Shown one piece after another: positions 29,659 to 45,838 of a stretch of 64,000 nucleotides of DNA. Position 1 is the stretch's first letter. Each line of letters begins with the position of its first letter. The translations under genes were made by a program, and so were the position numbers. Below the pieces are notes generated by a model. That model worked only from the letters and a program-made list of their open reading frames with translations. It made no database searches and was not told the origin of the DNA. The DNA is from Hyphococcus sp. (lineage in GTDB: Bacteria > Pseudomonadota > Alphaproteobacteria > Caulobacterales > Parvularculaceae): positions 1 to 64,000 of the forward strand of contig JANQON010000007.1 in assembly GCA_028289605.1 (NCBI GenBank), in the 5' to 3' direction.

Positions 29659-31194
29659 TTAAGAAATGGTTTTTTTTTCGCCCGCGAAACGGGCCCGTAG
29701 AGCTGACAAACGCTGCAACGCCAAGCGTTCGACGCCCGGCGGGGCACTTTCTAGTCGCCAAGCCGTCAGCACGACCGCGAAATGGATGCTCGCGCCGATG
29801 ATCACTTCAGCGGCGACCCTTAGCGCCAACGGCGCGTCGCTGATCGGGGAAAGATGGTCGCGCAGAAAAAGGAAGTAGACAGCCATGCCTGCGACGCCAA
29901 GGAATGACCGCCGCGCGCGCCAAAAGGGTTCAAGCGGCGAGCGACGACTGAGTCGCGCATACAGACCGGCGTTGAGAAATGTAATGAGCGTCACGCCGAC
30001 GGCCGACGCGAGCGCCGCGCCCATCAGGCCGTATAACATGGCGCTTACAACAAAAACCGGCGTTCGAAACAGAAAGACGACGACCTCGCGCAGAAACACC
30101 AGTTTCGCCCGGCCCTGGGCCAGCGCATAAGCGTTCGTCGCCGACAAGATCGTCATGACGCCGAGCGCCGGAGCGAAGTAAGACAGCATAACACTCGCCC
30201 GGCCCCACTGGTCGCCAAGCAGCAGTGCGACGAGTTCAGTAGCAAGAAAGGCGACGCCGAAAGAGGCCGGCATCGCGATAAACGCGATGGCTTCGACGCC
30301 GCGCAAATACGCCTCGCGCATATTTGACGCTTCCTCCTGGCGTTCGGCGAGACCCGGATAGATCGCGCGAGCCATAGGCGTCGCCAGTTCCCCGCTGGGC
30401 ATGGAGGCAATCGAGCCGCCGACGAAGAACGCGCCCACATCCGCCGGGCTGACCAGTCTGCCGAGAATGAGCACATCGAGCTTGTTGTTAAGCGCGGCCA
30501 CGAAGCTCACCCCGGTCAGCCATCCGGTGAAACCGCCGATCGATCCTAAAGCCGACAGGCTTATCCCTGGACGATACGGCCGCAGCACCCACGACATCAG
30601 CGTTTGAAGGAACGCTCCAGCGACGAGCCCGAGTACAATCGCCCAATAGCTGTGGAACGCCAGGGCGATAGAAACGGAGACGACGACGCCGAATAGCTTG
30701 TTGGAGGCGGCGAGCCAAAACTCCTTGGAAAAGTCGAGCGCACGTTCATATTCGAAAAACCGAGGATTCATTAGCCCATGGAAAACCGGGACGATGCTGA
30801 GCGCCAGAAAGACAGCCGCCATCCGCTGGTCGTCATAGACTTCGTCCGCAAACAGCGAAGCAATCACCAGCAAGGCGGCGACCGCTAGGCCCCTTAAAAG
30901 CGAGATTGTAAACAGCGTATTGTATTCTGAACGGCCCGCATTGCGGTATTTCACCACTGTCGTCGCGACGCCGATGTCGGAAACATTTTCCAAAAGCTGC
31001 ATGACGGTCACGCCGATGGCGACCAGGCCAAAGTCTCCCGGTGCAAGCAGCCGCGCAAGGATCAACGTGTTGATGAGGCCCAGCGTGCGTACGACAAAGC
31101 GGCCGCCGAGAATCCAGGCGGCGCCGAATGCAACCCGGTCCGTCAACGAACGCGGCCGGTCAGCGTGATCTGGCGAAGGCGCTGCCGACATCAT
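29659..31194 (-). CDS. Wzx/MATE-superfamily lipid-linked glycan or metabolite flippase
   Basis: A 511-residue membrane protein with about 12-14 hydrophobic helices. The N-terminal segment GAAWILGGRFVVRTLGLINTLILARLL and following GDFGLVAIGVTVMQLLE are typical of the polysaccharide-synthesis (WzxC/RfbX-like) branch of the MOP flippase superfamily. Such proteins flip lipid-linked saccharides, while related MATE proteins export peptide-polyketide products. Its start overlaps by four bases the stop of the upstream hydrolase gene, making it the last gene of the NRPS/PKS operon. No glycosyltransferase gene is nearby. A role in moving the pathway product, or a product-modified glycolipid, across the inner membrane is inferred. 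Confidence 0.82.
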   Translation of the reverse strand: MMSAAPSPDHADRPRSLTDRVAFGAAWILGGRFVVRTLGLINTLILARLLAPGDFGLVAIGVTVMQLLENVSDIGVATTVVKYRNAGRSEYNTLFTISLLRGLAVAALLVIASLFADEVYDDQRMAAVFLALSIVPVFHGLMNPRFFEYERALDFSKEFWLAASNKLFGVVVSVSIALAFHSYWAIVLGLVAGAFLQTLMSWVLRPYRPGISLSALGSIGGFTGWLTGVSFVAALNNKLDVLILGRLVSPADVGAFFVGGSIASMPSGELATPMARAIYPGLAERQEEASNMREAYLRGVEAIAFIAMPASFGVAFLATELVALLLGDQWGRASVMLSYFAPALGVMTILSATNAYALAQGRAKLVFLREVVVFLFRTPVFVVSAMLYGLMGAALASAVGVTLITFLNAGLYARLSRRSPLEPFWRARRSFLGVAGMAVYFLFLRDHLSPISDAPLALRVAAEVIIGASIHFAVVLTAWRLESAPPGVERLALQRLSALRARFAGEKKTIS

Positions 31195-32030
31195 TCAGCC
31201 CCGCCCGCGAGCGGAAAATGACGCTTCAGCCAATCACCTACATGACCAATCAAGGCCGACTGCGCACTTAACTCCGTATACGTATGGTCTATTTCCGGCA
31301 TGGTCACAACGTCGATGCGACTTCCGAAGTCGTATTCTGGAAATATCGAAAAGAAGTGAGACGGCCTCGAAATCATTGAGCGCACAAATCCCGTATAGAC
31401 GATAAGGATCCGCACCCCGCCATCTGTCAGCCGTTTAAGATCTGCGCCGAAAGACGTTCTCGGCGGCAATGGCCTGGCCTGATCCAAGTCTTCAACTGCA
31501 TCGGCCCCGCCGTTGTCAGATTTTGCCGACATGAGCGACGCCGCTTTGCGCATCCAGCGTTCCGGACTTGCGGCGCGCGCCAGCATATCCTCGGCGGCCG
31601 CCATGCGATTGGGATAGGCGTATGGATCAAGGAGGATCAGTCCCTTGATTCGTTCATCATTGAGCGCGGCGCGGTAGCCGTTGTCGGCGCCCGAACACAT
31701 GCCGAGCGACACGACCGCTTGCGCCTCCGCTTCCGACGACAACAGGTCGACAGCAGCCGAAATATCAATAGTCGCCTGCTCTTGGTGTCCGACCCCGCCG
31801 GACTTCGCAGGGCTCTCTCCTAGGCCGGACAAATCGAAACGCAGGCTCGGCGCCCCCTCTTTTTGCATTGCGCGGGCGATTTTGACGTTAAGGCGGTGCG
31901 CACCAATCCGGTGAACAACGCCGGCGTTGAATAGCAGCAGCGATGCGCCGCCGGCTCGATTCGCAGACGGCGTGCAAAGAACACCGTGCAACGCGCCGCT
32001 TTCGCCGATCTGGACAAGGCGTTCGCTCAT
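31191..32030 (-). CDS. Alpha/beta-hydrolase with Cys nucleophile, resembling exosortase-A-associated hydrolase 1
   Basis: A 279-residue alpha/beta-hydrolase-fold protein. The nucleophile elbow, normally G-x-S-x-G, reads G110-M-C112-S-G114, so Cys112 occupies the serine position; a candidate catalytic His249 lies in EIDHTYTEL. The N-terminal region LLLFNAGVVHRIGAHRLNV and RFDLSGLGESP fits, from memory, the family TIGR03100 that occurs with exosortase A. It is coupled to the neighbouring hydrolase and to the flippase by four-base overlaps. As no thioesterase domain is present in the synthases, it is the best candidate for product release or acyl transfer; this is inference. Confidence 0.75.
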   Translation of the reverse strand: MSERLVQIGESGALHGVLCTPSANRAGGASLLLFNAGVVHRIGAHRLNVKIARAMQKEGAPSLRFDLSGLGESPAKSGGVGHQEQATIDISAAVDLLSSEAEAQAVVSLGMCSGADNGYRAALNDERIKGLILLDPYAYPNRMAAAEDMLARAASPERWMRKAASLMSAKSDNGGADAVEDLDQARPLPPRTSFGADLKRLTDGGVRILIVYTGFVRSMISRPSHFFSIFPEYDFGSRIDVVTMPEIDHTYTELSAQSALIGHVGDWLKRHFPLAGGAE

Positions 32031-32845
32031 CTGTTCGATCCGATTGCATCCACGATATAGTCGATTGCGGCGGTCGGAATGAAATACGAATTCAGTGCGT
32101 CATCGCTGTTCCAGGGATCGGAATCGTCCTCGAAGACGTGGACGGATTTGGCGGCGCTTTCCGCTGTAGCGACGACGGATGATTCCGGCGCATGCGCGCC
32201 CGGTCTCATGAAGTGAACCCTCGCCGCGCGCGGAAAGCCGGTTTTGGACAAATCGATGGCGCCGACCTCGCGCGACAACGCCTGCGATACGGCGAAGCCA
32301 AGCGCCTCGGCCATGGTATCCGGCGCTGGACCAACCCGCTTGGCCACCGCCCCCGCGGGCTGGTCCAGGTTGCGCGCGAGAAACGCAAGGTGAGCGGCGT
32401 GAAGCTCGCGTAAATATTGCGTCCCATTGACGACCGCGTCCCAAAGGAACAGATGCTCAAGCCTTACATCGTTCTCTCTGGCGGCTGCGGCGGCGACGGC
32501 TCCGCCAAGCCCGAGACCGATCCACGCAAACCGACGTTTTGCGCTCATCGCTTGAAGTTCTTCCTGCGCGCTCGCTGCATCCCGCACCATGCCGCCGAAA
32601 GTGACGTCTGCGCAGTCGCCGGCCGAATCGCCCGCGCCAAAATAATCAAATCGCAATACCGGGGCGCCGATTCTCGCTAGTCGTTCCGCCAGCAGTTTGA
32701 AGATTCGGTAAGCGCGAATGGCTTCTTCACCAAATGGATTGAACAATAGCACGCCGGGAACCCGGGACGACGGCGCTTCCGCATGGTGATAAACACCATA
32801 CAGACGCCGATTACTTTCGCCAAAATAGAGCGGCGCCGCCGCCAT
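32027..32845 (-). CDS. Alpha/beta-hydrolase-fold protein lacking the serine nucleophile, resembling exosortase-A-associated hydrolase 2
   Basis: A 272-residue protein with the alpha/beta-hydrolase oxyanion and strand pattern (VLLFNPFGEEAIRAYRIFK, VLRFDYFGAGDSAG). The nucleophile elbow reads G110-L-G112-L-G114, so the catalytic serine is replaced by Gly112. The N-terminus PLYFGESNRRLYGVYH fits the family TIGR03101 from memory. It may be a non-catalytic partner of the adjacent Cys-type hydrolase or a binding protein. The gene overlaps the next one by four bases and follows the NRPS stop by 75 bases, the widest gap inside the operon. Confidence 0.73.
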   Translation of the reverse strand: MAAAPLYFGESNRRLYGVYHHAEAPSSRVPGVLLFNPFGEEAIRAYRIFKLLAERLARIGAPVLRFDYFGAGDSAGDCADVTFGGMVRDAASAQEELQAMSAKRRFAWIGLGLGGAVAAAAARENDVRLEHLFLWDAVVNGTQYLRELHAAHLAFLARNLDQPAGAVAKRVGPAPDTMAEALGFAVSQALSREVGAIDLSKTGFPRAARVHFMRPGAHAPESSVVATAESAAKSVHVFEDDSDPWNSDDALNSYFIPTAAIDYIVDAIGSNR

Positions 32846-32920
32846 ACCGGTTTCCCCTAAATATCAATCGATCGAATCTGACGTTGCGTCCCGCCGCAAG
32901 CTGGACAAGCGCCCTTTCAC

Positions 32921-35900
32921 TTAAGCATGCGAGTTTGGATCAGAGCCGGCCGACGCGCCTGCGACGAGTTGCTCAAGCGTTTCAAAAATCACCGCCCTTG
33001 GCGCGATCGCAAGACCGGCCGTTTTCCGGGCTCGCGCCACCATGCGCGTCACCTGAAGCGAATGACCGCCAAGTTCGAAGAAGTTATCGGAAACGGAGAT
33101 ATCATCGGTGTTGAGAATATCCGTCCAGATTGCGGCCAGCTTTCTTTCCTCTTCTGTCCGCGGCGCGACGCGCGTCGGCGAGCCGGTAACGCCGGCCGGC
33201 GGCGGCAGCGCCTTGCGGTCAACTTTGTTGTTTTGAGTCAGCGGCATTTCCGGCAGCTCAATAAAGAATTGCGGCGTCATGTAGTGCGGCACGTGTTCAC
33301 GCATGTACCGGCGCAGTTCACTGCCCGTCGCCGTTTCGCCGTCGTGAAATACGGTATAAGCAACGAGGGACGGCTCGCCGGTTTGGTCGGCCCGAACGGC
33401 GGCCGCAGCTTGCCGAATGGAAGGATGGCGCGACAACGCCGTTTCGATATCCCCAAGCTCAATGCGATAGCCGCGGATCTTCACTTGCTCGTCTCGGCGG
33501 CCGAGAATATCGATCTCGCCGTCAAGTCGACGCCGCGCTCGGTCTCCGGTGTTGTAAATGCGCCCTTCACCGGTGAACGGGTTTTCGCGAAACGACTTGG
33601 CGGTCAGTTCCGGCTTGCCGAGATACCCCAGTGCGACGCCGTCCCCGCCGAGCCAGAGATCGCCGGCGACGCCCGCGGGCGCGGGCTTTCCGGCGTCGTC
33701 CAGAATATAGGCCTGCGTATTTGCAACCGGCCGGCCGACATGGATATCGTCCGCATTCTCAATGAGCGCACATGTAGACCATACCGTTGTTTCAGTAGGT
33801 CCATACATGTTCCACAACGCGCCCACCTTCTCCAGCAAGGCGCCGGCGAGCGCCGGCGCCATCGCTTCTCCGCCGCACAGCGCCTTCAGTCCGCGAGCCC
33901 CATCCCAGTCAGAGTCGAGAAGAATGCGCCATGTCGCAGGCGTGCCCTGAAGGACGGAGATGTCCCTGTCTTCGATGATGTCAGCCAAGGCGAACCCGTC
34001 CATGGCGTCGTCGTCGCTCGCCAGCACCACCTCGGCGCCGGCGGAGAGCGGCACGAACAGCTCCAAAAGGGCGACATCGAACGAAAGCGTTGTTACGGCG
34101 AGCAACCGGTCCTCGGCGGAAAGGCCCGGGCGATGCATCATCGTCTCCAGGAAATTGCAAAGCGCCTGATGCGTGTTCTCGACGCCTTTCGGGTTGCCGG
34201 TCGAGCCGGAAGTGTAAATGACATAAGCCCGTGAGCGGCTATCGCGATGCGACAAAACCGGGGCGACCGACGGGGCGTCATCGACACGATCGGCGATCTT
34301 CGCCAGGTCAATCATGTCGACGCTTTCAGGAACCCAGTCTCCGCCAAGACCGTTGGTCACGATCGCCTTCGTTTTCGCATCCTCGACCATGTAGGCGAGA
34401 CGCTTTTCGGGGAATTCCGGATCCAACGGCAACATGGCCGCGCCGGTTTTCCAGACACCGAGGATGGCGGCGACCATCTCAACCGATCGGTCGAAATATA
34501 CGCCGACCACGTCGCCTTGCGTAACGCCCCAATCATGAAGCACATGGGCGATCTTGTTGGCGCGCGACTGGAGATCGGCGTAGCTCGCTGTTTGCTCACC
34601 CATACTGACAGCGGCGGCGTCCGGGCGCTTCGCGACCATCTCGTCAAAGTAGTCAAAAGCGAGCGCGTCGCGCCGGTAGGCCGAGCGCGTGCTGTTCAAG
34701 TCAACAAGCAAGGCGTCGCGCTGCGCTGCGTTCATGAGAGGAAGCGTATTGACAGCGCGCTCCGGAGAGGCGACCGCTGCCTCAAGAAAAGCGAGAAAGC
34801 AGTCCTTGAAGTACTCCGCATTCGCCGCTGTCATAACGTCGCTTGAATAGTTGATTTCCCCGGTCGCCTCCTCACTCATCTCACAAATTTCCAGGCGAAT
34901 ATCCGTAGGGGCGCCGCCTGGAGGGATATCAATCATATCAAGCCCGATTTCGCCCAACTTGGCTTTCCGTTCCCGTTCATCCTGATAGGCGAACATCGCC
35001 TGATACAATGGCGTACGGGAAGCATCGAGCGGTAGAGCGACTTTGGAAGCAAGCAAGCCGAGCGGCGCCGGGCGTCGGTCTGCAACGCTGAGCAGGTTGT
35101 CATTCGTCGCGCGCAAATGCGATGCAAAGGACGCGGACCCGTCAACGATCTGTCGAACGCCGAGGGCGTCCACAAAACAGCCGATAAGGCCGAACGTCTC
35201 TTCGCTTCGACGCAGGCTAACCGGCGTGCCGACGACGATGTCGGCATTGCCTGTGATTTGCGCCAGAAACGCCTGCCAAGCCGCCAGCAACACAATTGAC
35301 TTCGTGCAGCGGTGTTCGCGCGCCAAACGCGTCACGCTTTCAAAAACGTCCTTGTCGAACCGGAAGCACACCGCGTCGCCCTCGAAACTGAACATTTGCG
35401 GGCGCTTTGTCTCGCCCGGCAGTTCAATGGGCGGGGTTTTGCTGGAATAGTAGGTTTTCCAGAATTCCGCCTCCTCCTCCATGGCGCCGTCGGCAAGAAA
35501 CCGGCGATCCCACTCCGCAGCGGCGGCGTAGGCATCGCTGAGTGAGTCCAGCTCAAGGCGATCGCCGGCGACCTCGGCCTCATAAAACGCGGCGAGATCG
35601 CGCAAGAAAATGTCCCATGACATGCCATCCCAGATCAGATGATGCGGCATGAAAAACAACACATGGTCGGTATCTGAAGCGCGAAATAGGCGGGTGCGAA
35701 AAATTTCGCCGTCCAGCAGCGCCAACGGCGCGTCGCGCAGGTCTTCTAATCGTTGCAAGAGGCTCGCCTCATCTGACGGCGCCGGCTCGACCGTGAGTTC
35801 CAGATCGGCGGACGGCGTGCAGGTTGAAACCGGCGCTCCGTCGACAACATCGAACCGCATGCGCAGACTCTGGTGGCGGTTGATGACCGCATTCAACGCC

Positions 35901-36241
35901 CGCACGAGCGCGTCCGTTTTCAACGGCCCGCTCAAGCGCCAGGCGATCGCAAGATTATAGAGCGCAAGGTCCGGGAACATCTGCTGATGCGACCAGATCC
36001 GCTCTTGCAGGTAGCCGAGCGGCGCCGGGACTGAGTCTGGCGAGTGCGGTGAGGCGCCCGCGCCCAACATCGCAAGCAAGTCTTCTTTTCGATCGCGAAT
36101 GAACTCGATGTCGGTTGAAGACAGAACGCCTTTCGGCGCCGAGACATGGAGTTGCTCGCCGTCGCGAGCAAACGTAACGCCCCTGCCCTCAAGGCTGCGT
36201 GCGAAGGCGCTAGTCGATGTATCTTGTTTCTCAGGGCTCAA
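32921..36241 (-). CDS. NRPS module: TubC-like docking, condensation, adenylation, thiolation (C-A-T)
   Basis: An 1106-residue single-module NRPS. Residues about 12-58 resemble a TubC-type N-terminal docking domain (GVTFARDGEQLHVSAPKGVL). The C domain keeps HHLIWDG at 200-206. The A domain has YTSGSTGNPKG (676-686), FDVALLEL, NMYGPTETT and NNKVDRK. Manual alignment to GrsA gives the pocket residues D722, V723, L726, Q765, C789, G791, M812, V820, W821 plus the C-terminal Lys, close to codes I recall for glycine. The T domain carries Ser1061 in LGGHSL, and only 45 residues follow, so there is no thioesterase. The TTG start overlaps the upstream stop (TTGA) and has GAGGAG seven bases before it. 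Confidence 0.93.
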   Translation of the reverse strand: MSPEKQDTSTSAFARSLEGRGVTFARDGEQLHVSAPKGVLSSTDIEFIRDRKEDLLAMLGAGASPHSPDSVPAPLGYLQERIWSHQQMFPDLALYNLAIAWRLSGPLKTDALVRALNAVINRHQSLRMRFDVVDGAPVSTCTPSADLELTVEPAPSDEASLLQRLEDLRDAPLALLDGEIFRTRLFRASDTDHVLFFMPHHLIWDGMSWDIFLRDLAAFYEAEVAGDRLELDSLSDAYAAAAEWDRRFLADGAMEEEAEFWKTYYSSKTPPIELPGETKRPQMFSFEGDAVCFRFDKDVFESVTRLAREHRCTKSIVLLAAWQAFLAQITGNADIVVGTPVSLRRSEETFGLIGCFVDALGVRQIVDGSASFASHLRATNDNLLSVADRRPAPLGLLASKVALPLDASRTPLYQAMFAYQDERERKAKLGEIGLDMIDIPPGGAPTDIRLEICEMSEEATGEINYSSDVMTAANAEYFKDCFLAFLEAAVASPERAVNTLPLMNAAQRDALLVDLNSTRSAYRRDALAFDYFDEMVAKRPDAAAVSMGEQTASYADLQSRANKIAHVLHDWGVTQGDVVGVYFDRSVEMVAAILGVWKTGAAMLPLDPEFPEKRLAYMVEDAKTKAIVTNGLGGDWVPESVDMIDLAKIADRVDDAPSVAPVLSHRDSRSRAYVIYTSGSTGNPKGVENTHQALCNFLETMMHRPGLSAEDRLLAVTTLSFDVALLELFVPLSAGAEVVLASDDDAMDGFALADIIEDRDISVLQGTPATWRILLDSDWDGARGLKALCGGEAMAPALAGALLEKVGALWNMYGPTETTVWSTCALIENADDIHVGRPVANTQAYILDDAGKPAPAGVAGDLWLGGDGVALGYLGKPELTAKSFRENPFTGEGRIYNTGDRARRRLDGEIDILGRRDEQVKIRGYRIELGDIETALSRHPSIRQAAAAVRADQTGEPSLVAYTVFHDGETATGSELRRYMREHVPHYMTPQFFIELPEMPLTQNNKVDRKALPPPAGVTGSPTRVAPRTEEERKLAAIWTDILNTDDISVSDNFFELGGHSLQVTRMVARARKTAGLAIAPRAVIFETLEQLVAGASAGSDPNSHA

Positions 36242-39200
36242 AAGACAAACTCCTCACGCTCGCCTTGTTCAGGCGTTTCGAGCGCATCGATATGCGCCGC
36301 GAGCGCGCGCAAGTTCTCCGTTTCGAATATGGCGCGTACGCCCAGGTTCGGCGCCTGCGCTCGACGAAGGCGCGTCAGGAGTCGGGACGCGTGAATAGAG
36401 TGTCCGCCAAGGTCGAAGAAATTGTCGTCGATCGAAACGGATTCGCGCGCGAAGACGGCCGCCGCCGCTTCCGCGACGCATATCTCGGTGTCCGACATCG
36501 CCGTCGGCGATTCAGCCGGCGCCGCGACGGGAGCTTCAACCGTTGACGTCTGCCGGTCGGCGATGGCGACAACGGTTTCGTCTCTTTCTCTTGACTCCAT
36601 CTGCGCAAGCCGCGTCTCCGGATTGCGGACAATATCAGCGAGAATTGCCGTGAACTGATCGATCCAGTTCTCAATCGTGTCGGGATTGAAGAGATCGCTC
36701 GCATAATCCAAATCGATGACAAGCGATTCGCCTGCGTCTGACAGGTTCATGAAAACATCCTGGCAAACGGCGTAGCGGCGATTTTCGCGCGCATTGAAAC
36801 GGACGCCGGGCGCATCCAGTCCCGCGAAATATCCCGCGAAGTTGAAGACCGCTTCAACAAGCTGGGGCCTGCCCGGCAAACGCGGCGCGGCAATGGCGCT
36901 GATGAGTTCGCTCACCGACACCTCTGAGTGTTCAAACGCGTTGAGCAAGTCCGATTGTACCGACTTCGCAAATGCTGAAAACGCAAGATCGCCGAAGGGC
37001 CGAATGCGGACCGGAACCACATTGACGCAATAGCCGATCGCGTCGACGCCGTGACGCGCCTGACCGGCTATCGGCGCGCCCACGACGAGATCCTCGCGGC
37101 CTGTCAGCTTCCCAAGCAGGCTCGCAAACGCCGCCGTTGTTAGCGCCGCCATGGAAACGCCGAGGCTGCGCGCAGTGTCGCGAAGCCCTTTGCAAAGCGG
37201 TCCGGAGAGCACGCGCCGCGCTGTCGCGCCTTGATATGACATTTGTTGAGAACGCCGACGGTCTGTGGGTAAGTCCAACGTCGGCGGCGCGCCGTCGGCG
37301 AAGACGCCGCGCCAGTATTCCGGTGTCGCCGTCGCGCCAATCGACTTCACGATATAGGCGCTGAAGGGGTCGGCGCCTGACGCGCGCGGCGTTTGCCCAG
37401 CGATCAAAGCGCGGTAACGGCCTACAATATCGCGAATCAGGATGTCAGACGAATATCCATCGAAGACCAGATGATGGGCGTAGATGACGAAGACAAAGGA
37501 TTTTTCGCCCATCTGGTAAAGCGATAAGCGCACCAACGGCCCGCGCTCCAGATCGAAAGGCGTTAACGCATCGCGCTTTGTTTCTTCATCCAATGCGCGC
37601 TGGCGATCGCTTTCAGGCGCATCTCGAAGGTCTTGGTACTCAAGTTGAGCATTTGGTCCGTCTGCGACATATTGATATTCCCCAGCGCCGTCGAAGCGCA
37701 GGGAAAACGCCTCATGGTCGACGATCGCCGCGTTCGTCGCCGCCGTGAACGCCGCAATGTCCAGATCGCCTTCTGTGTGAATGGAATCCGATTCGTTAAA
37801 AGCGCAAGACGCCATGTCGCTGAGCTGCGAGGTCGCCCATATTGTGCGTTGACCGGAGGTCAACGGCAACTTGCGCTGAAATCCGGGCTCGGTTTCGTGT
37901 TTCGGTCCTGGCAACAGACCGTCCGCCTGCATCTCCAGAATTGAATCCTTCGCAGCGGCGACAATCATGTCGACATCTTCGTCGCTATGCGCCGTCGTCA
38001 TGTAACATGGGAAGCCTTCAAGCACGTGTACGCCGCGCTCGCGCATGTGGTAGAAAAATAGCGGCGCCAACTCACCCTTTTCTTCAATGCGAATGAACAT
38101 TTGCGACGTTGACTGCGCAACGTGAAAATCGACGCCGCGTTCTGCAAAAAAAGCGTTAAGCTCGTTTGCTAAGCGTTCCGCCAACGCGGCGGCATGTTGT
38201 TGAAGAGCCGGTCCTTTGTCTTTTAAATGCGCCAGGGACGCATGAGCGGCGGCGATGGCCAGAGGGTGGCGCACAAAGGTCCCAGCGAAAAATGTTACGC
38301 CGGCGGTTGGTTGCGACGCATCGCCGAAACGCCACTGTCCGCCGTCAAACGTATCCATAAACTTGGCGCGTCCCGCAACGGCGCCGATGGGCATGCCTCC
38401 GCCGATGATTTTCCCGAATGTGGCGAGATCGGCCTTGATATCGAAGACCTCCTGCGCGCCGCCGGGCGCCACGCGAAACCCCGTTACGACTTCATCAAAC
38501 ACCAAGGCGACGCCTTCGCGTTCGGTAATCGCGCGCAGTTTGTGCAGAAACTCTTTCGGCAGGAATTCCGGGCGCCGGCTTTGCACGGGCTCAACCAGAA
38601 CAGCAGCGAGTTCATCTGCGTGTTCGGCGATCGCGTGAAGAGCGGACTCTTCGCCGTAATCGAGAACAAGAACATTCTCCACCGCGGACGCGGGCACGCC
38701 CGGCGCCATCGGCCGGGCCGGCGCCGCGCCTGAAGTCGCAGGCCCCGCCCGCACCAGCACCTCGTCAAAATTGCCGTGATACGACCCTCGGAACAAAGCG
38801 ATCTTGTTGCGGCCGGTGACAGTGCGCGCAATGCGGATCGCCGCCTGCACCGCTTCAGACCCGGTGTTCACCCAGCTCGCCCGATCCATACCCGTCAGCT
38901 CGCACAGGAGCGTGGCCGCGTCTGCAGCGAGCGGGGTCTGGGGACCAATTTCAAACCCGTCGCCCAATTGTTCACGCAAGGCGTCCATCACAAACGGTGC
39001 GCGATGACCGAAAAAGTTGGGTCCAAAACCATTCAAAAGGTCGATATACTGATTATCATCGATATCCCACAGATACGCGCCTTTTGAGCGCTTAACGACG
39101 ACTGGATAGACCATTTCCTTCCAGAGCGTGTTGAAGCCGGCGGCGGTGCGCGGATCCGCATGACGCGCCCTGCCCTCCTGCGCGCGCATCTTTGAGCTGG

Positions 39201-39855
39201 AGGTTTTAGCGTTGTACCGCGCAGACAAGCGGTCGATATGCGCGCGCTGCATCGCAGTCAAAGAGCCGCCTTCGGAATCAGCAAGCGTCGGGCCGAAACC
39301 TGTCGGCAGCGCTGGGGCGTCGGCTGGAGGCTCATGCGGCATTGCGGGCGGGTTGGCGATTGGGGCCGGCTCGGACGCATCCAGCGTTTCCTGATTCGGC
39401 GCGCCCTGTCTGACAGCGCGTAAGATCTCCATCTGATCGCGCATCAGGTCAAGCTGACGGGCGAAAACAGCGGACAATCCGGAAACGTCGCCCGGCGGCG
39501 ACGCTTTCATTGACGGCTGATCTTTCACAATCGGTGCAGACATTTGCGTCGCGGTGTTGATGTCTTCGGCGGGCGGCGATGCTTCTTCCTTGAGTTGTTT
39601 TGTGACCATCGGCGCCAGATGCGCCGCCAGGATATTAATCGTCGGCTGGTCGGCGACAAGTTGGCGAAACGCCACGGGCGCGCCGAATTCACTTTGGAAT
39701 GCAGTCGCCAGCTGGGTCAGAAACAGGGAATCAAACCCGAGCTGCAAAAATGTTTTGTCCGCATCAAGATCACCCTCCGGATAGCCGGAAAGATCGGCTG
39801 TGACAGCGATCAGTCGAGCGCGAATGGCGGCGGTGTTATCGGTGGCGGCGTCCAT
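36238..39855 (-). CDS. Hybrid ACP-aminotransferase-condensation-thiolation synthase without adenylation domain
   Basis: A 1205-residue protein. Domain order: ACP with Ser43 in LGFDSLF; a short linker (FARQLDLMRDQMEIL, near 132); a class III PLP aminotransferase (about 240-640) with FDEVVTGFR and Lys482 in TFGKIIGGGMP; a C domain (about 660-1090) with HHLVFDG at 794-800; and a T domain with Ser1153 in LGGHSI. The layout resembles the ACP-AMT-C portion of iturin/mycosubtilin and microcystin synthases, where the aminotransferase converts a beta-keto thioester to a beta-amino acid. No A domain lies between C and T, so the T must be loaded in trans. ATG 39855 is chosen; the frame extends upstream into the PKS gene. 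Confidence 0.92.
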   Translation of the reverse strand: MDAATDNTAAIRARLIAVTADLSGYPEGDLDADKTFLQLGFDSLFLTQLATAFQSEFGAPVAFRQLVADQPTINILAAHLAPMVTKQLKEEASPPAEDINTATQMSAPIVKDQPSMKASPPGDVSGLSAVFARQLDLMRDQMEILRAVRQGAPNQETLDASEPAPIANPPAMPHEPPADAPALPTGFGPTLADSEGGSLTAMQRAHIDRLSARYNAKTSSSKMRAQEGRARHADPRTAAGFNTLWKEMVYPVVVKRSKGAYLWDIDDNQYIDLLNGFGPNFFGHRAPFVMDALREQLGDGFEIGPQTPLAADAATLLCELTGMDRASWVNTGSEAVQAAIRIARTVTGRNKIALFRGSYHGNFDEVLVRAGPATSGAAPARPMAPGVPASAVENVLVLDYGEESALHAIAEHADELAAVLVEPVQSRRPEFLPKEFLHKLRAITEREGVALVFDEVVTGFRVAPGGAQEVFDIKADLATFGKIIGGGMPIGAVAGRAKFMDTFDGGQWRFGDASQPTAGVTFFAGTFVRHPLAIAAAHASLAHLKDKGPALQQHAAALAERLANELNAFFAERGVDFHVAQSTSQMFIRIEEKGELAPLFFYHMRERGVHVLEGFPCYMTTAHSDEDVDMIVAAAKDSILEMQADGLLPGPKHETEPGFQRKLPLTSGQRTIWATSQLSDMASCAFNESDSIHTEGDLDIAAFTAATNAAIVDHEAFSLRFDGAGEYQYVADGPNAQLEYQDLRDAPESDRQRALDEETKRDALTPFDLERGPLVRLSLYQMGEKSFVFVIYAHHLVFDGYSSDILIRDIVGRYRALIAGQTPRASGADPFSAYIVKSIGATATPEYWRGVFADGAPPTLDLPTDRRRSQQMSYQGATARRVLSGPLCKGLRDTARSLGVSMAALTTAAFASLLGKLTGREDLVVGAPIAGQARHGVDAIGYCVNVVPVRIRPFGDLAFSAFAKSVQSDLLNAFEHSEVSVSELISAIAAPRLPGRPQLVEAVFNFAGYFAGLDAPGVRFNARENRRYAVCQDVFMNLSDAGESLVIDLDYASDLFNPDTIENWIDQFTAILADIVRNPETRLAQMESRERDETVVAIADRQTSTVEAPVAAPAESPTAMSDTEICVAEAAAAVFARESVSIDDNFFDLGGHSIHASRLLTRLRRAQAPNLGVRAIFETENLRALAAHIDALETPEQGEREEFVF

Positions 39856-39871
39856 ATTCCTGTTCGCTTTC

Positions 39872-42685
39872 CTACAATCCTTTGAGGATTTTGAGCTGAT
39901 CAGCAATCACGTCGAGTTGCCGATCAATGAGCCCATCAACATCCTGGATTTCCGTCGATCGGCCTTCGGTCGGTGGCTCATCGGCGCCATTCTCCAGGCC
40001 GATGGGAACGGATTTGGGTTTTCTGATGGGTTCAATCCAATACCGTTTGCGCTCGAACGGATAAGTCGGCAGAGGCGTGCGCCGACGGCGTCCGACAGAG
40101 AACGCTTCCCAGTCTGGCGAAACGCCATGCGTCCAGAGCTCGCCCATGAGCTGCATCATCGAGGCGGATTCCGTCCTTGTTGACGACAGTGCTCCCAGCG
40201 CGGCGAATGCGTTTGCGCCCGGCAGCGTCCGGGCCGTGAAGCCCGTCAGCGTTCCGCCGGGACCAAGCTCAACGAATATCTGCGGCTTGTCGTCGTCCGC
40301 AGCAGCGGCAAGCGCATCGCGGAACCGCACCGGCGCCATCAGCCCCTCGCCCCAATATGTCGGGTCGGCGAATGCGCCGGCGGGCGCGCGCGCGCCGAGC
40401 ATGGTTGAGTAGCAGTCAAGAGTTGCAGGGCTCAACGCGATATCGCGCGCGGCGGCGATCAGCGGGTCTTTCGCGCCGGCCATCATCGGCGAATGAAACG
40501 CATGAGACGTGTTGAGTATCTTCGCCGGCGTTCCGTCGTTTTCCAATCTCTCGGCGAGACGCCCAATCGCCGCTGTAGGACCGCTCAAAACGCAAGCGCC
40601 CGGCGCGTTCACTGCTGATACGACGATGTCCGGGGCGAGCGCCGACACAATCGTGTCTGCGCTGGCAAGGACGGCAAGCATTTGGCCCGCAGGTTGCGCC
40701 TGCATGGCGCGTCCCCGGGCTGCGACCAGCCGGGCGCCGTCCTCCAGTGAAAACACGCCGGCTGTCCATGCCGCTGCACATTCTCCGATTGAATGACCGA
40801 TGACGCCGGCTGGGACGACGCCCCAGCTTCTCAATAAGGCTGAGAGACCGCACTCGATCGCATAGAGCGCGACCTGGGCGTTCTCCGTGTTGGCGAGATC
40901 GGCGCTGACGGCCTCGTAAGAAGCATCCAACGCATCCGACCAAAGCAGGAAATCGCGAATGTCGCGGCGCGCGCCGTCATCAGCCAGCACCGCCTCAGCA
41001 ATGCAATCGACAGTCTGCCGGTAGATTGGCTCGTTGAAATAAAGTTCTCGACCCATCCCCGGGAACTGCGCCCCCTGACCGGGAAACATGAAAACGACTT
41101 CAGGAGAGGAAACGCTAAGCGACGCACTTTCTCCGATCGTCATTGCCGCGCGCAGTTTCTTCTTTGCTTCCGCCTTGTCGGCGGCGACGACGAAGCGGCG
41201 ATGCTCAAAGGCGCGGCGTCCTATGCGCAGGGTGTGCGCCGCATCCGCAAAGTCGACGTCCCGTTGCATCTCAAGGAACTGGGCGAGATTTTCAGTTTGC
41301 TGGTTAAGCGCTGCGTGGGAGCGCGCTGACAAGACGATCAACTCGCACGGACGACGGGTCTGGTCGAGAGAAGCGGGCGGGCCCTCTTCAACGACGATAT
41401 GCGCATTTGTGCCGCCAACGCCGAAGGAAGACACGCCCGCTCTTCGCGGTCCATCGGCGTCCCAGTGCTTAAGCTCGGTGTTGACGTAAAATGGCGTCGC
41501 ATCGAAATCAATTTTCGGGTTGGGACTCCTAAAGTGCAAAAGCGGCGGCAGAGTTTTCTCGTGGAGCGACAACGCGGTTTTTATTAGGCCGACGGCGCCG
41601 GATGCGCAGTCCAAATGGCCTAGATTAGCTTTTACCGAGCCTAGCGCGCAGTACCCGCTATCATCAGTCATCGACCGAAATGCTTTTGTGAGGCCCGCCG
41701 CTTCGATCGGATCGCCAAGGGGCGTCGCTGTCCCGTGCGCTTCGACATAGCCAATGGAACGGGCATCGACACCGCCCATCCCCAGGGCCAGTGAAATGAC
41801 TTCGGCCTGTCCGTCAACGCTCGGCGCCGTGTAGCTAAGCTTGTCTCCGCCGTCGTTGTTGGTCGCATAGCCCTTGATGACGCCGTAAATGACGTCGCCG
41901 TCGCGAATGGCGTCTTCGGCTCGCTTCAACAGGACCACCGCGGCGCCGTTGGAGAAAACGGTGCCGGCGGCGTCTGCGTCGAAAGGCCGGCAGCGCCCGT
42001 CCGGCGACAGCATGCCTCCTTCTTTGTAAGCGTAACCCTTACGCTGCGGTAAAACGATGGTAACGCCTCCCGCCAGCGCCATATCGCACTGATAGGTTTC
42101 GATGTTCTGACAAGCCGCAGCAATCGCAACAAGCGAAGTGGAACACGCCGTTTGCAATGTCATCGCCGGACCGCGCAAGCCGAGCTTGAATGCAACGCGC
42201 GTTGCAAGGTAGTCCTTGTCATTGCCTAGCTCGGTCTGGAGCGAGCCGACTTGCATGGACTCAACAAGATCGCGCAGCGACTCTTCGTTGGCGCACAGAT
42301 TATTGAACACGTAGGTGTCCATATAGCAGCCGCCGAAAACGCCGACAGCGCCGGGAACGCGCCCGGGATCATAGCCGGCGTGTTCCATCGCTTCCCAGCA
42401 GATTTCAAGAAAGATCCGATGCTGCGGATCCATGACTTCCGCCTCTTTCGGCAGGTAGCCGAAAAAGCGCGCGTCAAACTTGTCGATGTCGTCCAGAAGC
42501 CCCTTGGCGCAAACGAACTTGCCGGCGTCGTCTTTTGGCCCAGACGTCTCGAGTGTTTCAGGCGAAAATCGCGAAATTGAATCGACGCCGTCTTTGATGT
42601 TGCGCCAGAAGTCATCCACATTCCGTGCACCGGGAAATCGGCCGGCCATGCCGACAATGGCCACGCCTTGAGATGTCTCACTCAT
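39872..42685 (-). CDS. Type I polyketide synthase, KS-AT
   Basis: A 937-residue minimal PKS. The ketosynthase has Cys181 in TACSTSL, His316 in EAHGTAT and His356 in NLGHLD, so it is complete. The acyltransferase (about 525-830) has MFPGQGAQFPGMG, Ser631 in GHSIGE and the HAFH motif at 727-730, which normally indicates malonyl-CoA. A post-AT linker (PTYPFERKRYW) is followed by a short helical tail (IDRQLDVIADQLKILKGL) that may dock with the next protein. No KR, DH, ER or ACP is present; the ACP used is probably the one at the N-terminus of the aminotransferase protein. Start overlaps the FkbH gene stop (ATGA). Confidence 0.95.
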   Translation of the reverse strand: MSETSQGVAIVGMAGRFPGARNVDDFWRNIKDGVDSISRFSPETLETSGPKDDAGKFVCAKGLLDDIDKFDARFFGYLPKEAEVMDPQHRIFLEICWEAMEHAGYDPGRVPGAVGVFGGCYMDTYVFNNLCANEESLRDLVESMQVGSLQTELGNDKDYLATRVAFKLGLRGPAMTLQTACSTSLVAIAAACQNIETYQCDMALAGGVTIVLPQRKGYAYKEGGMLSPDGRCRPFDADAAGTVFSNGAAVVLLKRAEDAIRDGDVIYGVIKGYATNNDGGDKLSYTAPSVDGQAEVISLALGMGGVDARSIGYVEAHGTATPLGDPIEAAGLTKAFRSMTDDSGYCALGSVKANLGHLDCASGAVGLIKTALSLHEKTLPPLLHFRSPNPKIDFDATPFYVNTELKHWDADGPRRAGVSSFGVGGTNAHIVVEEGPPASLDQTRRPCELIVLSARSHAALNQQTENLAQFLEMQRDVDFADAAHTLRIGRRAFEHRRFVVAADKAEAKKKLRAAMTIGESASLSVSSPEVVFMFPGQGAQFPGMGRELYFNEPIYRQTVDCIAEAVLADDGARRDIRDFLLWSDALDASYEAVSADLANTENAQVALYAIECGLSALLRSWGVVPAGVIGHSIGECAAAWTAGVFSLEDGARLVAARGRAMQAQPAGQMLAVLASADTIVSALAPDIVVSAVNAPGACVLSGPTAAIGRLAERLENDGTPAKILNTSHAFHSPMMAGAKDPLIAAARDIALSPATLDCYSTMLGARAPAGAFADPTYWGEGLMAPVRFRDALAAAADDDKPQIFVELGPGGTLTGFTARTLPGANAFAALGALSSTRTESASMMQLMGELWTHGVSPDWEAFSVGRRRRTPLPTYPFERKRYWIEPIRKPKSVPIGLENGADEPPTEGRSTEIQDVDGLIDRQLDVIADQLKILKGL

Positions 42686-44730
42686 GAGAGCCCCTCCCGC
42701 GCAGCCTTAAGCCTGCGTCCATGCGCAGATCGCGCGCCGCGCATAAACGCCGCCCGCTCAGCCGCCGGCGCTTGCGTCGCCGCTTGAAGACGCAGCGCCA
42801 GTTGCTCGATCGTTGCGCATTCAAAAAGCATGGTCAGTTCAATGTCCCGCCCAAGAATTCGGCTCAGCATGGAATGGACGCGAACAAGATGAAGAGAAGC
42901 GCCGCCAAGCGCCGTAAAGGGGTCGCGCACGCCGATGGGCGAAACGCCCAACACCTGCGCCCATATGTCGGCGATATCCCGTTCAAGGCCCGGGGACGGC
43001 GCGACGAACGGCGACGGCACCGACGGTCGTTTTCGTTGCAGGCGCGCTGCGAGCGCTGATGCGATGCCGGCGCCCGTTGCAAGGTCGCCCGTTATGCGCG
43101 ACCAATCGACGGCGCGGACCGTCTTCGAGGAACTGGATTTAGCTGCTTTTGTCTCAAGCGTTTGTTTGCCCGCCTCAGGGGCAAACACCGTGGAGGCAAG
43201 TCGCTGCGGCGCAATGCTGGGTGACGCCGACAAGGCGTCCAGAAAGGTTCTCGCCGGTTTGTTTCGGGGGCCAACCTGGTACGCAAATGTAACAGACGAT
43301 AGTCCCTGCGCTTGCGCATTCTCGCCGACAAACGCCGCCATCCGGTGTTCGACGCCCCGGCCGAGGGCGCGGCAACTGAGCAAAAACAACTCAACGACGG
43401 CGTCGCCGCCGCTGACGCTGACGCCAATTGCGCCGACAATCCCATAGTCGCCGAAGCGATCGCGCACCGACACGCGATAGAGTGAATTGTACGGTGCTGA
43501 TCGCCATTCACGCAGTTGTTCTTCCGTTAGCCGCCGAAGATTGAGATTGAACTGGTTTGTACGCTGAGTGAGCTGAGATAGGCGGGGCGCGTCCTGCTCT
43601 TCCGCCGGCGCGATGTCGATGTCCAGATCGAGGCTGTCGATAAACGCCTGTAACGATGTTGCGGACTTTTCCTGCTCGCGTCGCTTAGCCTCCTCCCGAT
43701 ACATACGAGTTCGGGTCAGATCCTCTTTCGTGGCAGGCACCCCGTCGAACGGCCAGAAGTGATCTGCAAAACGCACCAACGCAGCGTCGCCTTTCGGAAC
43801 CGCGGCGGCAATCACAGCCGGCGCCGCTGCGTTGACTTCAGCGATTTCCAGTAAGTTGTCGTCTATGAAAACAACACTGTCATCGCCGACGCCAAACTCC
43901 TCCGTAATTCGACTAAGGTTTTCCGACTTTGAACGCCAATTGACTTCTCTCGCCAGAACATCGTCCAACGCTAGCGCCATGTCGGCGCGATGAGAGAATA
44001 CCGCGTCGACATCGCGGGCGTCGTTTTTGCTGAGCAGCGCCACAATACGGCCAAGGCTTGCCTGTTCAGAGAGTCGGCGCTGCAGCGCCTGGCGACCGGC
44101 GCCGATGCGAATACCGTCCACGCCGTCTTCGCCGACAACGCCGTCCCACAGAGTGTCATCGCAATCGACAGCGACCATTTTGACTGGCGGCCGCATCGCT
44201 GCATAGGACCGCCGCACGACGGCGGCGGACAGCGCTCCGTAACCCTCCATGCTGAAGGGGATCGAGGCCGTCTTCTCCAAGGTTTCGTCAAATGGCGAAG
44301 CAACACCGTACAAAGCGAAAATGTCGTTTCCTTCGACGACGCCGAAGCGCGGATCGAGCCCGCTTCGAAGAATCCTGTTTGCTGCCTGATCGCTTGGGTC
44401 CGCCTCCTCCGAGAAAAGAACAACCCAGGCGGTGACGCCTGATCCATTCAGCAGGGCCGTCAGCTCGGACGCGGCGCTCTCCATGTCGCCGGCCTGCGCC
44501 AGATCGCTCCACCGGACGAAAACGAACTTGTGCGCCGCGCTGTTTCGCAAAACGCTATCGGCGGACAGCAACTGTTGGTGTAATTGTCCAAACGGGGTGA
44601 ACGAAAAACCGACATCAACACCCAATACGCCGGACCACAACGGCGCGAAATCGCCCAGCGGATCCGCCGTAAACGTTGCTCCCACCACGATGTCGATACG
44701 CTGCACCGCCCGCTCCAGTTCCTTCCGCAA
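42682..44730 (-). CDS. FkbH-like HAD glyceryltransferase fused to a C-terminal carrier domain
   Basis: FkbH-type enzymes dephosphorylate 1,3-bisphosphoglycerate and load glycerate onto a carrier. The N-terminal 180 residues match the FkbH N-terminal region (VGATFTADPLGDFAPLW). The HAD motif is D189-C-D191-D-T193-L-W, followed by a GNAT-like region with TQRTNQFNLNLRRLTEEQ. The C-terminal ACP carries Ser612 in LGGASLHL, where the usual residue before Ser is His or Asp. The oxidoreductases needed for methoxymalonyl-ACP are absent, so a glyceryl starter is more likely than an extender. TTG 44730 is the recorded start; GTG 44706 has a better GGAG site. Confidence 0.88.
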   Translation of the reverse strand: MRKELERAVQRIDIVVGATFTADPLGDFAPLWSGVLGVDVGFSFTPFGQLHQQLLSADSVLRNSAAHKFVFVRWSDLAQAGDMESAASELTALLNGSGVTAWVVLFSEEADPSDQAANRILRSGLDPRFGVVEGNDIFALYGVASPFDETLEKTASIPFSMEGYGALSAAVVRRSYAAMRPPVKMVAVDCDDTLWDGVVGEDGVDGIRIGAGRQALQRRLSEQASLGRIVALLSKNDARDVDAVFSHRADMALALDDVLAREVNWRSKSENLSRITEEFGVGDDSVVFIDDNLLEIAEVNAAAPAVIAAAVPKGDAALVRFADHFWPFDGVPATKEDLTRTRMYREEAKRREQEKSATSLQAFIDSLDLDIDIAPAEEQDAPRLSQLTQRTNQFNLNLRRLTEEQLREWRSAPYNSLYRVSVRDRFGDYGIVGAIGVSVSGGDAVVELFLLSCRALGRGVEHRMAAFVGENAQAQGLSSVTFAYQVGPRNKPARTFLDALSASPSIAPQRLASTVFAPEAGKQTLETKAAKSSSSKTVRAVDWSRITGDLATGAGIASALAARLQRKRPSVPSPFVAPSPGLERDIADIWAQVLGVSPIGVRDPFTALGGASLHLVRVHSMLSRILGRDIELTMLFECATIEQLALRLQAATQAPAAERAAFMRGARSAHGRRLKAAREGLS

Positions 44731-44742
44731 TTGTCCGCGCCG

Positions 44743-45474
44743 CTAGCTGCAGAGTCTATAGAAATGCAATTTCGGGGCCGCAAAATCTGTCGCAATCGCT
44801 GCCTGGTAACCATCGAATGGATTGAATGATAAAAGGGTCCAGTCCGCCGCGATCGCCGCCGCGCCCTCCGCCCGGACGATCGCCGGCGGCGCATGAGGGG
44901 AAATCGCTACCTCGAAGGCGTTAAGCGGCGTCGCCAACCCGGTTCCGATGGCCTTGAGGACCGCCTCTTTCCGGGTCCAGGCGGCGAAAAACCCTGAGGC
45001 CCAGTCATCGGCGCTAAGCGCATCGAGTGCGCGCTGTTCGGCCGGCGCAAACGACTGGTTTGCAACGTCTTTCAGATCGTCGCTGAACCTGACTTCCTCC
45101 AGATCTGCGCCGAGAACCGGAGCCAACGAGACCGCCAACAGGGCGTGTCCGCCCGAACGAGAATAGTTGAAATTCAGGTTTTGCGCGGCCAATCGAGGCC
45201 GTCCGTGGTCGCCGACCTCGAATCTGATCGCGTCGGGCTCAAGGCCCACATAGCGCCCGAGTATGCGCCTTATTCGATCGTGACCGGCAATGAAACGCAC
45301 CCGATCGCGGTCAAAATGAAACCTTTCTGCGCGTGCGCGCTCGCCCGCATCCAACGTCTCCTGCGTCGCGGCGGCGTCCAAAGAAAACAGCCAGCAATCA
45401 ATGTCCTGATCGCGCAGCGCAGGGCTCACGTCGTCAACGCTCGCTGGGGTCGAGACTGCAGGATCAGTGTTCAT
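44743..45474 (-). CDS. Sfp-type 4'-phosphopantetheinyl transferase
   Basis: Attaches phosphopantetheine to the carrier domains encoded downstream. The 243-residue protein has the Sfp-family pattern: AGHDRIRRILGRYVG, then LNFNYSRSGGHALLAVS, GADLEEV (metal-binding acidic motif, normally GxDxE) and FFAAWTRKEAVLKAIGTG. ATG 45474 gives the usual length; a longer in-frame extension would run into the opposite-strand riboswitch and is not credible. It is the first gene of the operon, 12 bases upstream of the FkbH gene. Confidence 0.9.
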   Translation of the reverse strand: MNTDPAVSTPASVDDVSPALRDQDIDCWLFSLDAAATQETLDAGERARAERFHFDRDRVRFIAGHDRIRRILGRYVGLEPDAIRFEVGDHGRPRLAAQNLNFNYSRSGGHALLAVSLAPVLGADLEEVRFSDDLKDVANQSFAPAEQRALDALSADDWASGFFAAWTRKEAVLKAIGTGLATPLNAFEVAISPHAPPAIVRAEGAAAIAADWTLLSFNPFDGYQAAIATDFAAPKLHFYRLCS

Positions 45475-45537
45475 GCGTCCAAGCCTATCACTCCGGCGTC
45501 CGCTTGACATGCAGGAATAGAAATGCGCAGAAAACTG

Positions 45538-45697
45538 CAGACGGCGCCCTCTAAGGGGGCTTAATAGGGAATCCGGTGCGAATCCGGAACTGTGCCCGCA
45601 ACTGTTAGCGGCGAGCCGACGGCCACTAAATCCACTGGGACGCATGTCCTGGGAAGGAAGGCCCGAGGCGTTGACCCGCGAAGTCAGGAGACCTGCC
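45538..45697 (+). promoter_or_regulatory. Cobalamin riboswitch
   Basis: The core aptamer is readable: a TAATAGGGAATCCGGTGCGA segment at about 45562-45581, AATCCGGAACTGTGCCCGCA ending at 45600 followed by ACTGT, then GACGGCCACT, then TGGGAAGGAAGGCCC, and the 3' part CCCGCGAAGTCAGGAGACCT near 45675-45694. This is the standard B12-element layout. It controls the downstream btuB-btuF-btuC-btuD operon, which should be off when cobalamin is plentiful. A TTGACA hexamer at 45504-45509 could be the -35 element, but I see no convincing -10. Confidence 0.93.
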
Positions 45698-45748
45698 GTC
45701 GCGTCGCTCGCCCAAGGCCGGGACCAGCCAGCGGGGCAGGATCTTTTT
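45692..45748 (+). terminator. Candidate riboswitch-linked terminator in btuB leader
   Basis: CCTGCC (45692-45697), the last bases of the aptamer, can pair with GGCAGG (45735-45740), which is followed by ATCTTTTTCC. An inner CGCT/AGCG pairing may extend the stem with a bulge. Sharing of the aptamer's 3' strand would suit a switch by termination, though control of translation cannot be excluded. Confidence 0.45.
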
Positions 45749-45838
45749 CCATTGAAGCGACAGCCTATTCGCGCGCACGGCCCTTTGCCTGCGCTTATGT
45801 CGCTTGGTCGGCCCTCGCCGGCCGGAAAAGGAATGAAC

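Follow-up and report, generated by a model that had tools for sequence, protein, structure and literature searches.

In a 64,000-nucleotide stretch of Hyphococcus sp. DNA (contig JANQON010000007.1, positions 1 to 64,000; "the window" hereafter), eight genes on the minus strand encode a hybrid polyketide synthase-nonribosomal peptide synthetase (PKS-NRPS) assembly line, two proteins of the alpha/beta-hydrolase fold (Hyd1 and Hyd2) and a Wzx-type flippase. We propose, with a probability of about 0.55, that an acyl group ending in glycine is built on the assembly line and passed by the hydrolase pair to a surface glycan, with Wzx doing the flipping. The proposal is built, by sequence, on domains, motifs, conservation, homology of the pair to hydrolases of exosortase A (XrtA) exopolysaccharide loci and co-occurrence with XrtA genes; each catalytic step, the number of glycines, the acceptor and the flipping are predicted from these.

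The hydrolase pair and its XrtA counterparts

Hyd1 is a homologue of hydrolase 1 (TIGR03100), and Hyd2 of hydrolase 2 (TIGR03101), of XrtA exopolysaccharide loci, which comprise an acyl-CoA ligase (TIGR03098), an acyl carrier protein (ACP), hydrolase 2 and hydrolase 1; the operon pair matches these hydrolases member by member and in the same order. The comparison set was drawn from 299 genomes of the phylum, 16 of which had a strong hydrolase 1 (15 above the cut-off). Twelve XrtA loci were fetched; in nine of them, profiles locate hydrolase 2 directly upstream of hydrolase 1, as in the window. A tree of 59 proteins separates the first members (20 from operons, 12 from XrtA loci) from the second members (18 and 9, respectively) with support of 100/100. 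Within it, the operon Hyd1 proteins form a group of their own (96/81) while the operon Hyd2 proteins do not, those of two gammaproteobacterial loci (L060 and L062) and of one G058 locus branching outside. Most simply, the divergence between first and second members preceded the split of the two systems, and the pair has stayed together since.

The two systems also share a division between the partners. A Cys nucleophile and a late, C-terminal His are present in all 32 first members (20/20 operon, 12/12 XrtA), whereas none of the 27 second members has a nucleophile, the position being occupied by Arg in 22 and by Gly in 5, the window Hyd2 among the latter. The preliminary description of this DNA had called both hydrolases degenerate; this holds for Hyd2, but not for Hyd1, in which Cys and His are kept. 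The Hyd2 of G052, which was first masked by a longest-ORF filter and found later by profile, is absent from the tree and from these counts, and a position filter left genes of G013, G014 and G038 out of several profiles.

A transferase role for Hyd1 is put forward by analogy. TIGR03100 and TIGR03101 are NCBIfam entries of the kind "hypoth_equivalog" with no function stated, and in the available part of the first PEP-CTERM/EpsH paper (PMC1569441) the words hydrolase, ligase, acyl carrier and acyl-CoA are all absent. Against solved structures, the Hyd1 profile gave mostly partial matches to esterase-type alpha/beta hydrolases and, weakly (E 2.3e-4), a single chain annotated as "DltD domain-containing protein"; these argue neither for nor against a transferase.

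Two genes found near the pair in some relatives are recorded here. A type II thioesterase-like gene on the minus strand, with a GHSLGA-type motif by eye, lies between the NRPS part and the hydrolases in eight relatives (G012, G013, G014, G015, G047, G048, G052 and G057); none was seen in the window operon. A predicted anchored protein, SGNH-like by eye, is encoded near the pair or the PPTase (4'-phosphopantetheinyl transferase) gene at L177 798-1925 (-), at L141 5745-6872 (-) and in the G047 neighbourhood. It is 36-44% identical in these three lineages and was detected in no other locus at 1e-4 (tblastn); the two copies read carry AVLGDSDSxSY, and the L141 copy had no NCBIfam match at 1e-10.

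The link to XrtA genes extends to genomic context. In L060 (HGW-Gammaproteobacteria-4) and L062 (Luteimonas aestuarii), the XrtA-system sugar transferase TIGR03013 is above cut-off and its gene sits either within the block or no more than about 2 kb away, so that in both the operon adjoins XrtA genes. L062 additionally has a TIGR03098-like ligase (465 bits, cut-off 592), and the Luteimonas contig carries TIGR03007 (chain length) and TIGR03016 (outer membrane) above cut-off 23-27 kb from Hyd1. The window genome itself holds TIGR03027, 03007, 03016, 03015, 03006, 03019 and exosortase A (TIGR03109) above their cut-offs, covering export, chain length, ATPase, deacetylase, FemAB and exosortase functions. 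It has three exosortase genes, on contigs C13, C16 and C18; the one on C18 is exosortase A and is adjoined by an XrtA-type amidotransferase-like gene (736 bits, cut-off 817). Across the 62 genomes of the family Parvularculaceae, TIGR03013 was discarded as a discriminating marker, since it matches in 61 and is above cut-off in none, and TIGR03007 (E 1e-60 or better) was used instead. This marker is found in 53 genomes, 50 of them above cut-off. All 16 genomes with Hyd1 have it, and Hyd1 is in none of the 9 genomes that lack it, some of which are incomplete. In genus g8 both are present in 4 genomes and both are missing from 6, so that they coincide in 10 of 10.

The assembly line and its predicted product

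The open reading frames (ORFs) place all eight genes on the minus strand within 29659..45474 (Table 1), and the gene set, domain list and overlaps of the preliminary description were borne out by ORFs, Pfam and NCBIfam matches and motifs. Four 4-base overlaps follow from the ORF ends (31191/31194, 32027/32030, 36238/36241 and 42682/42685). The KS-AT and aminotransferase (AMT) genes overlap by 35 bases if the first TTG is used, an overlap abolished by a later ATG at 39855. A start at 45474 gives the PPTase a length of 243 aa; this protein reached 143 bits against HetI (NF042922), under the cut-off of 370. PF13440 has five matches in the window genome, four of which are above cut-off, and the operon flippase is the strongest of them. 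It had been described as Wzx/MATE: the polysaccharide type fits, while the MATE identity was dropped, no MATE model having matched at E 0.001.

Table 1 Features of the operon and of the divergent neighbouring genes
Feature	Position	Strand	Basis
PPTase, Sfp/HetI-type 4'-phosphopantetheinyl transferase, 243 aa	44743..45474	-	PF01648, 58.6 bits
FkbH-ACP: HAD-like glyceryl transferase domain, then a carrier domain (LGGAS) at the C terminus	42682..44730	-	TIGR01686, PF00550
KS-AT (ketosynthase-acyltransferase), single extension, AT motif HAFH	39872..42685	-	PF00109, PF02801, PF00698
ACP-AMT-C-T (C, condensation; T, thiolation), PLP aminotransferase of mycosubtilin type	36238..39906	-	Pfam/NCBIfam; best PDB match 6kfu
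TubC docking-C-A-T (A, adenylation), A code DVLQLGMVW	32921..36241	-	Pfam; best PDB match of A core 4zxh
Hyd2, alpha/beta-hydrolase fold without nucleophile, XrtA hydrolase 2 homologue	32027..32845	-	TIGR03101, tree
Hyd1, alpha/beta-hydrolase, Cys nucleophile (GMCSGAD) and C-terminal His, XrtA hydrolase 1 homologue	31191..32030	-	TIGR03100, tree
Wzx-type flippase	29659..31194	-	PF13440, 212 bits
Cobalamin riboswitch, then TonB receptor, binding protein, permease, ATPase	45525-50249	divergent from operon	

FkbH-family proteins make the glyceryl-ACP starter. The window FkbH is recognised by TIGR01686 (281 bits, cut-off 146.65) and by no Pfam model; its HAD motif is intact, D189/D191/T193 and S452-C453-R454 being invariant in 10 aligned sequences. 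A single KS-AT follows, with the KS motifs TACSTS, EAHGT and NLGH and the AT motifs GHSIGE and HAFH, the last of which we take to specify malonyl. No KR, DH, ER or other reducing domain and no thioesterase was found in the operon by Pfam scan. The AMT protein has the order ACP-AMT-C with the ACP motif LGFDS and the catalytic lysine in an FGKI motif (K499, invariant in 12 sequences), and its best solved relative is subunit A of mycosubtilin synthase (6kfu, E 8.9e-128), a beta-aminating domain. Both C domains carry HHxxxDG, T domains LGGHS and the carrier domain of FkbH LGGAS. These results agree with the glyceryl starter, the one malonyl extension without reduction and the beta-amination proposed earlier from domain logic, and they allow the "one or two amino acids" of that proposal to be sharpened to what is most likely glycine through the A-domain code and nearest structure, as follows.

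The pocket of the window A domain, mapped by hand at 9 of 10 positions, reads DVLQLGMVW, and the nearest solved relative of its core is 4zxh. In the part of PMC11253843 available, 4ZXH/4ZXI are listed with glycine as substrate and the glycine pocket of DhbF is given as D656/Q699/W755 (D...Q...W). The window A domain combines such a pocket with a glycine-bound nearest structure and most likely activates glycine; the pocket was judged by the residues in that paper, and a literature search for the glycine code as a string of letters gave no paper. Among the A domains of hydrolase-linked loci, 20 of 21 fit D[VI]LQ[LV]G[MLV][VI]W. The sole exception belongs to the NRPS part of G057 (DILQLGEVF). One glycine-like A domain is present in the fused AMT-C-A-T proteins of G012-G015, in Luteimonas and in lines of the window type, and two in G024, G052 and L060. 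The T domain of the window ACP-AMT-C-T protein has no A domain of its own and is probably also loaded with glycine, in trans, because G024, G052 and L060 hold a second glycine-type A-T at that place. The chain predicted on the last T domain is thus 3-amino-4,5-dihydroxypentanoyl-Gly or -Gly-Gly, the glycine number being inferred.

Conservation of the block and its stripped forms

The AMT gene has close homologues in 13 of the 62 family genomes, the window's own included, spread over four of nine genera, with 46-60% identity to the window in the other 12. The block is kept in these 12 at about 31-68% protein identity per gene: in all 12 neighbourhoods FkbH-ACP, KS-AT, AMT and the NRPS part are accompanied by Hyd2, Hyd1 and Wzx, FkbH of G038 being cut by a contig end. 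The PPTase gene lies beside the block in 10 of the 12; the G038 contig stops before it, and none was found in G057. The NRPS part is fused to AMT in G012-G015 and G057, Wzx is on the opposite strand in G012-G015, and the flanks vary, the closest relatives excepted. Such conservation is far more than expected by chance, and with the two gammaproteobacteria described below it places the gene order well beyond this strain.

At the level of the order, the AMT gene was found in 15 of 299 genomes, the two extra ones encoding larger proteins with 37-41% identity. When named genomes were scanned with the AMT alignment, 330 stretches and 255 relatives came up; 80 of the relatives were kept and, with two loci from the order draw, 82 were examined. 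Hyd1 and Hyd2 occur together in 10 of these, namely eight Parvularculaceae-type loci already counted and, outside the family, L060 and L062, the gammaproteobacteria that carry the block. In Neomegalonema (L058) the assembly line has no pair nearby; the pair is on another contig, its Hyd2 scoring 308 bits against the operon profile, and the genome was therefore dropped as a hydrolase-free counter-example. A genome-level check of 14 carriers for hydrolase 1 detected it in Neomegalonema, in Luteimonas and weakly in L070; since it failed to pick up the L060 pair, which is known to exist, its negatives carry little weight. A plasmid search with the AMT protein returned 29 records, all below 60% identity and about half from Rhizobium, Sinorhizobium and Ensifer.

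Other architectures were seen among the relatives. Four Verrucomicrobia-type loci (L068, L072, L104 as one protein and L134 in pieces) have FkbH-T-KS-AT-ACP-AMT-C-A-T with no pair nearby, and their A-domain codes are not glycine-like. An A-T protein replaces FkbH in many Acidobacteria-type loci. Wzx-like genes (87-128 bits) also lie near KS-AT-ACP-AMT-C lines that have neither FkbH nor the pair, in L089, L097, L106, L109, L110, L111, L117, L125, L127 and L130 (8 of these 10 are Acidobacteria records), another pairing of a flippase with an assembly line.

The pair is in addition found without the complete line. With a threshold for Hyd1-type genes of E 1e-14 or better to TIGR03100, they occupy 17 places in 16 of the 62 family genomes: G004, G049, G058 and all 13 that have the assembly line; TIGR03100 is above cut-off in none of the 62. 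At G049 and at one G058 locus the set is reduced to PPTase, one A-T protein, Hyd2, Hyd1 and Wzx; no PKS was found there, and both A domains are glycine-like. The second G058 locus runs from a contig end with C-A-T, Hyd2, Hyd1 and PPTase, and in G004 the contig breaks off right at Hyd1. After Wzx of the G049 operon there is a glycosyltransferase gene (L149 38-979) with a relationship to TIGR03088, an XrtA family (114 bits, cut-off 409).

On the XrtA side, six neighbourhoods were profiled and four of these inspected by eye, with genes resolved only in L165 and L166. An AMP-ligase-like gene lies less than about 3 kb from the pair in five of the six (profile), an ACP-like gene was recognised by eye in L165, L166 and L167, and one of the six has a weak flippase match. 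The stripped operons parallel those XrtA loci in which such a ligase-like gene neighbours the pair. What all these loci have in common is Hyd2/Hyd1 together with an acyl or aminoacyl group in activated form, as a rule bound to a carrier protein; in this family a flippase is added.

Proposed acyl transfer and competing explanations

In the model that we favour, FkbH would load a glyceryl unit onto its carrier domain, KS-AT would add one malonyl unit without reduction, and AMT would convert the beta-keto group to an amine, giving 3-amino-4,5-dihydroxypentanoyl. The NRPS part would add one or two glycines, the chain remaining as a thioester on the last T domain. Hyd1, supported by its inactive partner Hyd2, would take the chain from this domain onto its Cys and hand it over to a polyprenyl-linked oligosaccharide, at a hydroxyl or an amine group. 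This oligosaccharide would most likely be that of the XrtA exopolysaccharide, and Wzx would flip the decorated lipid-linked unit. Transfer by Hyd1/Hyd2 would account for the lack of a thioesterase, for Hyd2, Hyd1 and Wzx being constantly found together, for the stripped form that has only glycine and for the XrtA link. The preliminary description had left open whether the flippase exports the product or a conjugate with a lipid carrier or glycan; the conjugate is favoured here because the pair is tied to exopolysaccharide biosynthesis and the flippase is kept with the pair, and free export is disfavoured.

Several observations weigh against this model. The window Hyd1 and Hyd2 score 83 and 80 bits to TIGR03100 and TIGR03101, short of the cut-offs of 168.45 and 202.75, and Hyd1, proposed here as an acyl transferase, could instead be a plain hydrolase. 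There is no glycosyltransferase or polymerase in the window operon, no XrtA biosynthesis gene among its scanned flanking genes, and the XrtA genes of this genome are on contigs C10 and C18, not beside the operon. The association of Hyd1 with XrtA is weak statistically (one-sided Fisher p 0.054 in the family and 0.072 in its high-quality genomes, relatedness ignored; 0.10 for the AMT gene against TIGR03007, relatedness likewise ignored), the p of 0.005 for genus g8 comes from a genus picked after seeing the data and again ignores relatedness, and 37 of the 53 XrtA-positive genomes have no Hyd1. The Neomegalonema pair is unlinked from its assembly line, and Hyd1/Hyd2 are absent from all Acidobacteria and Verrucomicrobia loci among the 82 examined. 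Finally, a glycine-like A code also follows AMT in L070, L076, L106 and L109, loci without the pair, which makes this code a feature of the AMT line and not of the hydrolase pair alone.

Some of these points would suit a free secondary metabolite, for which Hyd1 would act as a stand-alone thioesterase releasing a polar beta-amino acyl (glycyl)glycine for export by the flippase. Free products are normal for PKS-NRPS lines and MATE-type pumps export some peptide products; the lack of a glycosyltransferase, the unlinked Neomegalonema line and the related AMT lines of other phyla without the pair nearby are all as expected of such a pathway. However, the export gene is of the polysaccharide flippase type, the pair is homologous to XrtA exopolysaccharide enzymes, and the Hyd2-Hyd1-Wzx set also accompanies a lone glycine-like A-T, from which only glycine could be released. 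Moreover, the thioesterase-like gene seen by eye in eight relatives is a separate candidate for plain hydrolysis. We therefore regard a free product as unlikely, though a serious contender. A different acceptor seems to us decidedly improbable; here Hyd1 would pass the chain to a protein, to some other glycan or to a lipid, be it an aminolipid or a glycolipid, and the lipid would be flipped by Wzx. Such an acceptor would be compatible with the distance between operon and XrtA genes in the window genome, with the movement of polyprenyl-linked substrates by Wzx proteins, and with the capsule-export-like genes near the Neomegalonema pair (KpsC/KpsS/Wza-like by eye; G303:C21, ~114.7-119.8 kb, 6-11 kb from the pair in L177), but the XrtA sugar transferase is inside or beside the block in the two gammaproteobacteria and XrtA genes are present in all 16 Hyd1 genomes.

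The genes divergent from the operon encode a TonB receptor, a binding protein, a FecCD permease and an ATPase, and might be read as the uptake system of a siderophore or metallophore pathway. We rejected this reading, whose probability is very low indeed: a cobalamin riboswitch (RF00174, 117 bits, 45525-45715) lies ahead of the receptor, the best NCBIfam matches are to the vitamin B12 receptor and the BtuC permease, both below cut-off, and a TonB/ABC neighbour is found in only 2 of 13 loci, those of the window and G036, although some contigs stop early. NCBIfam gave no clear B12 assignment for the ATPase or the binding protein. As a group, these genes look like vitamin B12 uptake genes outside the system. 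A 349-aa protein (50354-51403) adjoining them has no Pfam match at E 0.001 and is 64% identical in G036.

Set against known systems, the operon of the favoured glycan-transfer model combines familiar parts. It differs from XrtA loci in its donor, a PKS-NRPS line with a PPTase, in hydrolases that fall below the curated cut-offs and in the placement of the window's XrtA genes elsewhere, while the Cys/no-nucleophile split and, in five of six XrtA loci, a ligase-like gene beside the pair are shared features. With mycosubtilin/iturin-type PKS-NRPS lines it shares the ACP-AMT-C order and the AMT sequence; those lines use a fatty acyl starter and yield a free cyclic lipopeptide, whereas the starter here is of the FkbH glyceryl type. 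FkbH/glyceryl-ACP units serve as starter or extender in FK520, bryostatin and others, and the operon likewise has an FkbH with intact HAD motif and a carrier domain; here the glyceryl unit would start a short chain, extended by two carbons and beta-aminated. The AlmEFG system of Vibrio cholerae resembles the proposal in that an adenylating enzyme loads glycine on a carrier, from which it is transferred to a glycolipid of the envelope, but the transfer there is the work of AlmG, an acyltransferase of the LPLAT type instead of an alpha/beta-hydrolase pair, and the system has no polyketide part (PMC3783018 and PMC11253843, in the parts available). Carrier-protein-dependent acylation of envelope polymers is already known from Dlt and Alm (PMC3783018). 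A literature search in listings of open-licence papers found no PKS-NRPS line dedicated to envelope-polymer acylation and, in agreement with the preliminary description, no described pathway with this gene set.

We suggest, tentatively and at somewhat less than even odds, that this PKS-NRPS line is dedicated to building an amino-hydroxyacyl-glycyl substituent of an exopolysaccharide and that the hydrolase pair hands it over. Hydrolase 1/2 of XrtA systems would then be an acyl transferase of general use between carrier proteins and glycans, with donors ranging from one ligase and an ACP up to a complete PKS-NRPS. The repeated coupling of XrtA hydrolases to carrier-bound or ligase-activated acyl donors of rising complexity gives these proteins a concrete, testable role, for which the stripped A-T-Hyd2-Hyd1-Wzx operon is a small and tractable test system. 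If the proposal is true, the decoration of surface polysaccharides is a further task of natural-product assembly lines, and some gene clusters at present classed as cryptic pathways to small molecules would have to be interpreted afresh.

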